The position numbers and the translations under genes are program-made. DNA of 64,000 nucleotides from Ancylobacter defluvii (GTDB lineage: Bacteria; Pseudomonadota; Alphaproteobacteria; Rhizobiales; Xanthobacteraceae): NCBI RefSeq assembly GCF_018390605.1, contig NZ_JAHBGD010000024.1, positions 806,001-870,000 of the forward strand. The letters run 5' to 3'. The notes under the pieces are model-generated. The model did no database searches, was not told where the DNA came from, and saw only the letters and a list, made by a program, of their open reading frames with translations. Within the stretch, counting starts at the first letter, position 1. Each line of letters opens with the position of its first letter. Below, in pieces: positions 6,007 through 50,946 of the stretch.

Positions 6007-6063
6007 TCGGCGACTCCGGTGTCTTGCGTAAGACCGGGGACGCCCACGCGCACACGCCGCGCG

Positions 6064-6130
6064 GCCCCGACCTTTTTAGCAACCTTGTTTAGCGTGGCGG
6101 CAAGCCGGTCGGCTTCAAATGACCACGTGG
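6064..6130 (-). promoter_or_regulatory. SAM-II riboswitch upstream of metZ
   Basis: On the minus strand, reading from 6130 down, the leader shows CGTGGTCATTTGAAG, CCGACCGGCTTGC, CGCCACGCTAAACAAGG and TTGCTAAAAAGGTCGG. This is the compact H-type pseudoknot of SAM-II: CGTGG pairs with CCACG, and the hairpin-loop bases CCGACC pair with the 3' GGTCGG. The conserved TAAACAAG and GCTAAAAAGG elements are present. S-adenosylmethionine binding would hide translation or transcription signals of metZ, whose start is about 60 bases downstream. Confidence 0.93.
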
Positions 6131-6238
6131 TGGAGGCAATTAGCGCCGCCGCCGGCTTGGCGTCAAGGGGCGCGTCCGGTAAAGCGAACGCGGGACATTC
6201 ACCCTTTTGGTGATCACTCAACCGAAGCGAGACGAAGC

Positions 6239-12503: not shown

Positions 12504-12600
12504 GGGAGGTTGGCGGTGGACGAGCCACTCGCCAACCGGGTCAGGTCCGGAAGGAAGCAGCCCCAACGAGCCCGTCTCGGGTCGCATGTCAGCCTCCCAC
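12504..12600 (+). ncRNA. ffs: Signal recognition particle RNA, small bacterial 4.5S type
   Basis: RNA scaffold of the signal recognition particle, which with Ffh targets inner-membrane proteins. The universally conserved apical region is present: GGTCAGGTCCGGAAGGAAGC from 12539, followed by AGCCC. The termini pair, GGGAGG at 12504 with CCTCCC at 12593-12598, giving a single hairpin of about 97 nucleotides as expected for proteobacteria. It lies upstream of dnaX and ebfC, a common alphaproteobacterial order. Confidence 0.95.
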
Positions 12601-49570: not shown

Positions 49571-49632
49571 TTTCAGTATCACTGAAAACGCAATGAGATT
49601 TCATTGCGAGTGAAGAAGCGTGCGCCTATAGT
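49571..49632 (+). promoter_or_regulatory. Twin palindromes and leaderless promoter of ribB
   Basis: TTTCAGT-ATC-ACTGAAA (49571-49587) and CGCAATGA-GATT-TCATTGCG (49589-49608) are two adjacent perfect palindromes sharing TTTCA-type half-sites. TTGCGA (49604-49609) and TATAGT (49627-49632), 17 bp apart, form a good promoter whose -35 is overlapped by the second palindrome. The predicted start falls at about 49639, the A of the ATG, so the long ribB message would be leaderless. No FMN riboswitch is seen. Confidence 0.7.
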
Positions 49633-49638
49633 CCCGGC

Positions 49639-50946
49639 ATGAAACTGGCGGACTGGCTCAGAGCGACCGGAACCCCACGCAGCGCGTTCGCCCGCGCCTG
49701 CGGCCTGTCGCCGGCCAGCATCACCGCCCTGTGCAAGGACGACCCGGCCTGGGTCTCGCGGGAGGCGGCGGCGCGCATCGCCGCGGCGACGGGCGGTGCG
49801 GTGACGCCGAACGACTTTCTCGGGCTCGACATCAGCGAGGTGAAGACCATGACCGACAATCTCCAGGCCCGCGTCCAGGCGGCCATCGAGGCCTTCGCTC
49901 GCGGCGACATGCTGGTGGTGACCGACGATGACGACCGCGAGAACGAAGGCGACATCATCCTCGCCGCCGTGCATGCGACACCGGAAAAGCTGGCCTTCAT
50001 CGTCCGCCACACCTCCGGCATCGTCTGCACGCCGATCACCGCCGAGCATGCGCGCAAGCTGCGGCTGAACCCGATGGTGAGCGACAACGACGCGCCGCAT
50101 TCCACCGCCTTCACCATCTCGGTCGACTACAAGCACGGCACCACCACCGGCATCTCGGCCGAGGACCGCACCGCCACGGTGCGCGGCCTCGCCAACCCCA
50201 ATGCGGGGGCCGCCGACTTCGTGCGGCCGGGCCACATCTTCCCGCTGATCGCCCGCGAGGGCGGGGTGCTGATGCGCTCCGGGCACACCGAGGCGGCAGT
50301 CGACCTGTGCAAGCTCGCCGGCCTCGAGCCGGTCGGCGTCATCTGCGAATTGGTCAATGACGACGGCACGGTGATGCGCGGGCCGCAGGTGGCCGACTTC
50401 GCCACCACCCACAAGCTCACCCGCGTCTCGGTGGCCGACCTCATCGCCTACCGCCAGTCGCGCGAGAAGCTGGTGACCCGCGCCGCCGAGTTCACCGCCC
50501 CGACGCTGGTCGGCGACATGCTCGGCATCTCCTATGTCACGCCTTTCGAGCCGGTGAACCATCTCGCCCTCGTCTATGGCAAGATCGGCGACGGGCGCGG
50601 CGTGCTGGTGCGCCTGCACCGCGCCGACCCGATCGGCGACGTATTCACCGGCGGCAAGGCGATCCAGACCTCGCTGGAGCGCATCAAGGCCGAGGGCCGC
50701 GGCGTGCTGGTCTATCTGCGCGACGGCACCGCCGGCGTGCCGACCACCGCCGTCGGGCAGGACGAGGGCAAGACCGAATCGACGCGGCTGCGCGACGAGG
50801 CCTGGCGCGAGGTCGGGCTCGGGGCGCAGATCCTCAAGGATCTCGGCATCACCTCGATTCGGCTCCTCGCCTCGCGCACCCGTACCTATGTCGGCGTCGC
50901 CGGCTTCGGCATCGAGATCGTCGGCACCGAGGTGCTGGACGCCTGA
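49639..50946 (+). CDS. ribB: 3,4-dihydroxy-2-butanone-4-phosphate synthase with N-terminal HTH domain
   Basis: Riboflavin-pathway enzyme making the four-carbon unit from ribulose 5-phosphate. Residues 1-65 are an unusual helix-turn-helix extension (MKLADWLRATG, SAFARACGLSPASITALC, WVSREAAARIAAATGG) of XRE/Cro character. The DHBP synthase domain spans about 75-275, with the active-site DDDDRENEGDIILAA near 95, HSTAFTISVDY and REGGVLMRSGHTEAAVDL. A C-terminal GTP cyclohydrolase II-like domain follows but lacks the zinc-binding cysteines and probably lacks that activity. An internal ATG at 49849 (MTDNLQAR) has GAGGTG before it, so a standard-length isoform may also be made. Total 435 residues. 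Confidence 0.92.
   Translation: MKLADWLRATGTPRSAFARACGLSPASITALCKDDPAWVSREAAARIAAATGGAVTPNDFLGLDISEVKTMTDNLQARVQAAIEAFARGDMLVVTDDDDRENEGDIILAAVHATPEKLAFIVRHTSGIVCTPITAEHARKLRLNPMVSDNDAPHSTAFTISVDYKHGTTTGISAEDRTATVRGLANPNAGAADFVRPGHIFPLIAREGGVLMRSGHTEAAVDLCKLAGLEPVGVICELVNDDGTVMRGPQVADFATTHKLTRVSVADLIAYRQSREKLVTRAAEFTAPTLVGDMLGISYVTPFEPVNHLALVYGKIGDGRGVLVRLHRADPIGDVFTGGKAIQTSLERIKAEGRGVLVYLRDGTAGVPTTAVGQDEGKTESTRLRDEAWREVGLGAQILKDLGITSIRLLASRTRTYVGVAGFGIEIVGTEVLDA

Follow-up and report, generated by a model that had tools for sequence, protein, structure and literature searches.

A helix-turn-helix domain fused to RibBX in Hyphomicrobiales, a candidate autoregulated riboflavin enzyme with two predicted translation starts

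Enzymes that repress genes are already known. PutA, BirA and NadR are enzyme-repressors that control pathway or transport genes, and in archaea RbkR, a helix-turn-helix (HTH) domain fused to riboflavin kinase, controls several rib genes. Riboflavin genes can also be controlled by the FMN riboswitch (RF00050). Several short stand-alone XRE/Cro repressors with an HTH related to the one described here have a palindrome shortly before their start. RibBX proteins, in which RibB is followed by a degenerate RibA domain, have been described for Aeromonas (PMC10012899).

We analysed a stretch of 64,000 nucleotides of the Ancylobacter defluvii genome (contig NZ_JAHBGD010000024.1, positions 806,001 to 870,000), hereafter called the window. 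One of its genes codes for a protein with the same RibB-X architecture, in which the GTP cyclohydrolase cysteine cluster is missing, and adds to it an N-terminal HTH, putative operators and a predicted second translation start. Based on comparisons of sequences, we propose, with a probability of roughly three in four, that HTH-RibBX is an autoregulated, dual-start riboflavin enzyme whose long form would repress its own gene as a dimer. Like PutA, BirA and NadR, it would be a metabolic enzyme that is also a transcription repressor; it differs from them by the conserved target, its own gene, and by a predicted HTH-free isoform made from the same mRNA. Like RbkR, it is a riboflavin-pathway enzyme carrying its own HTH, but the enzyme, the HTH and the domain of life are different, and its own gene would be the one constant target. 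Pfam detected RibB, GTP cyclohydrolase II-like and HTH families in the window protein, and no riboflavin kinase family. In contrast with the stand-alone XRE/Cro repressors, the HTH is here the first domain of an enzyme. An HTH on RibBX with its own operators and isoforms would represent a new version of the enzyme-regulator idea, and no description of HTH-RibB or HTH-CoaBC was found in the titles and abstract openings covered, which included few subscription papers. For the control of riboflavin synthesis in a large order of bacteria, HTH-RibBX provides a candidate circuit. If the proposal is true, the enzyme is its own dedicated repressor, with isoforms generated via a leaderless and an internal start.

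The long ORF (49639-50946, plus strand) codes for an HTH-RibB-X protein of 435 aa, as supported by Pfam and by matches in the genomes of the family. Its RibB domain covers residues 81-271 (49879-50451, plus strand; Pfam PF00926, E=7e-84, and PDB alignments) and is followed by a degenerate GTP cyclohydrolase II-like domain, or X domain, at residues 281-429 (50479-50925, plus strand; PF00925 and alignment with 4i14). An earlier note on this DNA, made from the sequence alone, had described the gene as a plain ribB and missed this second domain. In the alignment with the RibBA chain 4i14, the RCDCG cysteines have no counterpart, and the cysteine cluster of the active enzyme is missing from the X domain. 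The protein scored 243 bits with TIGR00506 (cut-off 177) and 41 bits with TIGR00505 (cut-off 206), the ribA models being far under their cut-off. The absence of the RCDCG segment and these scores identify the window protein as being of the RibBX type. Protein-family models name the gene only RibB or RibBA. The full-length AlphaFold model was set aside, as it is poor outside of the HTH (mean pLDDT 60.9).

No second RibB was found in the 5.28-Mb genome at E≤0.001. We also considered whether a canonical RibA is encoded elsewhere. The genome harbours just one other PF00925 match, at contig positions 726157-726591 (locus L003), outside of the window. It looks like a pyrimidine-catabolism homologue, since it adjoins an ORF that we take to be URC4/Urg3-like, and it was not retained. 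This genome therefore shows no obvious enzyme for the GTP step that opens riboflavin synthesis. BrbF, as presented in PMC9478397, is a case to compare in this respect.

The HTH is of the XRE/Cro type and occupies residues 1-63 (49639-49827, plus strand), with a predicted recognition helix at approximately residues 25-33. The earlier note had correctly placed it in frame with ribB, but as an extension of 65 residues; 70 residues precede the internal ATG. With Pfam HTH_26, the window HTH scored 21.5 bits (E=0.00028), just under the domain-alone cut-off of 22 bits. In an alignment of 38 members, this family was matched at E≤0.01 in 31 of them, including the window protein, and 25 of 69 columns are invariant. 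The AlphaFold model of the HTH shows five helices in a compact, all-helical Cro-like fold (pLDDT 83.5). Foldseek searches with this model gave P22 Cro and YdaS as top matches with weak E values of 0.04-0.15, P22 Cro being best at 0.04; no match reached E≤0.001. The domain is 96% identical to the HTH of Ancylobacter oerskovii, and dN/dS values of 0.09-0.30 relative to nine near relatives indicate purifying selection. The HTH on RibBX is a real domain. A phage origin was considered and discarded, as the PHROGs matches are generic repressor families only and tblastn against 50,697 phage records gave no match at E≤0.01.

In the family of the window species, HTH-RibBX is present in 24 of 149 genomes. 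In 23 of them the match runs from residue 1 to residue 434 or 435, and in G001 it is in two pieces. At the level of the order, an HTH match was obtained in 96 of 397 genomes. In 62 of these it reaches an E value of at most 2e-23 and lies in an open frame of 397-644 aa. The HTH and RibB are encoded in one ORF in all of the best 80 named loci among 155 matches, from Ancylobacter, Xanthobacter, Azorhizobium, Aquabacter, Labrys, Bosea and others, as well as in all 28 order loci examined (L190-L217, of the 62 strong matches), to which we added the window genome and G022. A catalytic and a DNA-binding domain are thereby joined in a single chain, as in trigger enzymes that repress their own transcription. 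In a sample of 385 genomes of the class, 23 had a match; outside the order, only two genomes (family f94) matched at E<1e-20, both with the HTH fused to RibB. HTH-less relatives of the family have ribBX closely behind aroC in 14/14 parsed loci, as judged by eye (five of the 19 loci, L074, L075, L076, L078 and L079, were not parsed). Methylobacterium bullatum is likewise devoid of the HTH and has ribBX behind aroC. On a RibBX tree of 64 rows, the HTH-less label requires three changes, and the HTH was therefore lost or gained several times. The operators described below go with the HTH across these losses or gains.

We collected 131 genes of a first type (class A) and drew 61 representatives from them, whose HTHs are less than 90% identical to one another in nucleotide sequence. 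All 61 promoters harbour a 17-bp palindrome with a 7-3-7 geometry, similar to TTTCAGT-NNN-ACTGAAA. The best site matches 10-12 of 12 positions in 61/61 representatives, compared with 0.13% of block-shuffled promoters, the consensus having been derived from the same promoters that were scored with it. Sites similar to TTTCAGTATCACTGAAA are kept at about -68 and -40 in the promoters of the HTH form. In the window, operator 1 (49571-49587, -68 to -52 from the ATG) is a perfect palindrome, TTTCAGT-ATC-ACTGAAA, and a site with at least 9 of 12 positions occupies this place in 52/61 representatives. Operator 2, TTTCATTGCGAGTGAAG (49599-49615, -40 to -24), overlaps the -35 element and is imperfect in the window species; its place is filled at the same threshold in 50/61 representatives, as opposed to 2.2% of shuffles. 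Both places are filled (at least 9 of 12) in 43/61.

The earlier note had reported two perfect palindromes. That at 49571-49587 is both perfect and conserved. The other, CGCAATGA-GATT-TCATTGCG (49589-49608, 8-4-8), which overlaps operator 2, is perfect but lineage-specific: among 21 loci (the window and L108-L127), only 6 have arms that match at 7-8 of 8 positions. It was thus rejected as a conserved operator, the conserved second site being at 49599-49615. In some Ancylobacter, this palindrome shows compensating changes, such as TGCAATAA-TCTT-TTATTGCA in L118.

Homologues that have the HTH but lack conserved palindromes, which according to the earlier note would have spoken against its proposal, were not found among the class-A representatives, all 61 of which have the conserved site. 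Conversely, the best site before ribBX reached only 6-8 of 12 positions in 26/26 HTH-less loci, none of which has a class-A site there. Since HTH and operator are present, absent and diverged together, we infer that the long form very probably binds the palindromes of its own promoter, as had been suggested.

Some deviations from the general layout were observed. Operator 1 is degenerate or missing in some Xanthobacter promoters (L011, L012, L014, L017), which keep operator 2. Four representatives of the Methylobacterium/Beijerinckiaceae type have their site near -78 to -81, and in them neither a -10 element ahead of the start codon nor an internal Shine-Dalgarno (SD) sequence is clear. HTH-RibBX loci of this type (L129, L131, L143, L146, L147) harbour a TTTTTCATTGAC element downstream of the operator, and the acidic loop is REGEGD rather than RENEGD in L129, L131, L143 and L147, the four whose proteins were printed.

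Operator 2 overlaps a promoter whose geometry is conserved. A -35-like element, TTGCGA (49604-49609, plus strand), lies inside operator 2 and is separated by 17 bp from a -10-like element, TATAGT (49627-49632, plus strand), which ends 6 nt before the start ATG at 49639. This promoter, ending just before the ATG, is as had been claimed, and its layout is shared by most representatives (TTG at -37 to -33 in 56/61 and TA at -12 in 47/61). The first ATG is preceded by an SD match of 0-3 nt in 54/61 representatives and of 4 nt in 7/61, and none has 5 nt or more. Transcription would begin at or next to the A of the ATG, and HTH-RibBX would be translated from this predicted leaderless transcript. Leaderless mRNAs do occur in the order: taken as those with leaders of 0-9 nt, they account for 7% of the mRNAs of Methylorubrum (PMC9320726), and 171 leaderless start sites are given for Sinorhizobium (PMC3616915). 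The words 'ribB' and 'riboflavin' do not occur in the main text of the Methylorubrum paper (PMC9320726).

We scanned 24 class-A genomes for the class-A site with at most one mismatch. Among 66 matches, 35 are at ribBX, where every genome has one or more. The remaining 31 lie elsewhere and are about twice as many as in the reversed-pattern control (16). A wider regulon shared by all 24 genomes was not seen, and two of the places away from ribBX were looked at. One of these sites is exact in the related genomes G041 and G113 and has a one-mismatch version in G130. In G041 and G113 (L103, L107; site at 1501), it is found by eye between genes that we take to be of LysR type and nitronate-monooxygenase-like, and the other, in the window genome (L086; site at 1501), lies between presumed LysR-type and SDR-type genes. 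As each of them adjoins a LysR-type gene, these sites may be LysR boxes. In these scans, ribBX is the one constant place of the class-A site, and further targets are possible.

A second HTH/operator pair, class B, was found in family f23, where 38 of 69 genomes have an HTH-RibBX whose match begins at residue 1 or 2. The class-B HTH scored 27.4 bits with HTH_3 (cut-off 23). Its recognition-helix sequence is of the SQGRVSQL type, compared with SPASVTAL in class A, and its operator is TATTAGC-NNN-GCTAATA, with the same 7-3-7 geometry. In 19/27 parsed loci (three of 30, L250, L260 and L267, were not parsed), such a palindrome, its arms matching at 6 or more of 7 positions, starts at -23 to -26. 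In 20 of the 38 full-length class-B genomes, we searched for the consensus site with at most one mismatch. It was present exactly once in 18 of them, each time no farther than 25 nt upstream of the ATG of HTH-ribBX. The two others lack it, and the control gave one match in the 20 genomes. The class-B site covers the -10 element and the start, which, as judged from the sequence, is the position of a repressor.

RibB is a homodimer, and a dimer of two long chains would therefore present two HTH units to the two-fold, 17-bp operator. The XRE-type HTH of RibBX has such a two-fold operator at its own promoter, as read from sequence only. In class A, a dimer at operator 2 would cover the -35 element with the assistance of operator 1, and in class B a dimer would sit on the palindrome covering the -10 element; in both cases the gene would be repressed by its own product. 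Autorepression by the RibB dimer is likely from this arrangement. The HTH might instead bind its promoter as an activator, or act like lambda CI, with operator 1 recruiting the polymerase at low protein and operator 2 repressing at high protein. Operator 1 is at -68, a usual distance for an activator, and the spacing between operators 1 and 2 is mostly 26-29 bp, with 33 in L016. However, the class-B promoters have a single site over the -10 and the start, and the several Xanthobacter promoters mentioned above retain operator 2 with a degenerate or absent operator 1. We consider activation improbable.

The palindromes might also be bound by a separate, stand-alone XRE regulator, with the HTH on RibB having another role such as partner binding. 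Short XRE ORFs of the same family do occur in several genomes. Nevertheless, the site is present at ribBX in 24/24 class-A and 18/20 class-B genomes, HTH and operator co-occur and are missing together, and in the window genome, where 14 of the 56 candidates were scored with the HTH profile, the HTH of RibBX was the only match at E≤0.001. This explanation is thus very unlikely, and we favour binding by the HTH of RibBX itself.

The second start proposed in the earlier note, an internal ATG at 49849 preceded by GAGGTG (49837-49842, plus strand), is present, and the SD sequence is at a conserved position. It opens a short ORF (49849-50946, plus strand) that codes for a RibBX of 365 aa without the HTH. 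By eye, this internal start coincides with the beginning of ribBX in HTH-less relatives. We compared the junction between HTH and RibB with a synonymous-recoding null, which keeps the protein sequence. In 55/56 representatives the junction holds a start codon preceded by at least 4 nt of SD match, compared with 32.5 expected, and in 42/56 the match is of at least 5 nt, compared with 20.7 expected. Five class-A representatives that the RibB pattern had missed are outside of this count, namely L127, which has AAGG before the ATG, and L129, L131, L143 and L147, which have no clear SD. In the Xanthobacter type, the linker Arg-Gly-x-x-Val is written CGA-GGT-...-GTG in 14/14 representatives, which form one clade and do not count as 14 independent events. 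Elsewhere in the same genes these codons are rare, CGA being used for 8 of 476 Arg residues and GGT for 15 of 531 Gly residues. Other families have AAGGAG-GTG or GGAGG-ATG at this place. For class B, the internal site has an SD of at least 4 nt in 21/27 loci and GGA only in five, and one locus has no start.

By these comparisons, the internal SD and start are under synonymous constraint. On these grounds, the two isoforms that had been predicted from one gene are probably made. Another explanation is that the long protein alone is made and that the unfused ribBX start survives as a remnant in the internal SD and start, which are indeed located at its place by the comparison by eye with HTH-less relatives. 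HTH-CoaBC genes, in which no such conserved start was seen by eye, would also fit with remnants. Nevertheless, the retention of rare synonymous codons in 14/14 Xanthobacter-type representatives and the varied SD/start solutions elsewhere argue for selection over drift, and we find the remnant explanation rather unlikely. With two isoforms, initiation at the internal SD and ATG 49849 of the same mRNA would yield RibBX, which would supply enzyme without DNA binding. In mixed dimers the short form would weaken DNA binding, and thus the long:short ratio would set the feedback point.

A metabolite might also intervene in this circuit. DNA binding could be switched by a ligand of the RibB or the X domain, either ribulose 5-phosphate, the product of RibB or a flavin. 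Archaeal RbkR responds to compounds of the flavin pathway. Furthermore, the X domain regulates RibB activity in Shewanella, according to a report cited in PMC10012899. The genome scans, however, revealed no further conserved target, and simple abundance feedback would suffice. We view a metabolite-sensing repressor as a tentative option, somewhat on the doubtful side.

A related XRE HTH is fused to another cofactor enzyme, CoaBC, in family f32 (L219, L268-L275; TIGR00521, E=5e-122). In 8 of 30 genomes the HTH-CoaBC match spans the whole length from residue 1 to the C-terminus, and in one more it is partial. One of the eight loci (L271) was not parsed. Among the seven others, a 7-3-7 palindrome of the ATTACAT-NNN-ATGTAAT type is found at -25 in three and a dissimilar one at -27 in one; the remaining three have none. 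We also noted short stand-alone XRE open frames of 72-103 aa (L229, L231, L232, L236), each preceded by a palindrome at a distance of about 24-29 nt from its start. Such ORFs with their own palindrome suggest a source for a captured cassette. We lean slightly towards a scenario in which cofactor enzymes of Hyphomicrobiales, RibBX and separately CoaBC, captured short self-repressing XRE cassettes, made up of a promoter, an operator and an HTH, in frame and became their own dedicated repressors. RibBX would have kept its unfused start, giving DNA-binding and DNA-blind isoforms whose ratio provides the feedback. As part of the same scenario, the HTH and operator specificity would have changed together at least once, from TTTCAGT to TATTAGC half-sites. 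The HTH/operator pairs would represent a natural series for studying specificity change, and the similar arrangement on CoaBC suggests that the regulatory module can be reused.

Lastly, we searched for FMN riboswitches. None was found in the window, as the earlier note had stated, nor in the whole genome. With strict filters, an FMN riboswitch is present in 24/149 genomes of the family, none of them among the 24 HTH genomes, and 101/149 have neither HTH nor riboswitch. The proposal that the enzyme-repressor stands in place of the RNA switch is not supported by these data. Among the 24 riboswitch loci (L033-L056), ten of which were also read by eye, the ORF behind the riboswitch is ribH in the six tested by Pfam, and replacement of the riboswitch by the HTH was consequently not retained. 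Other RNA elements detected with Rfam in the window are a SAM-alpha riboswitch aptamer (6055-6136, minus strand) and a small SRP RNA (12505-12600, plus strand).
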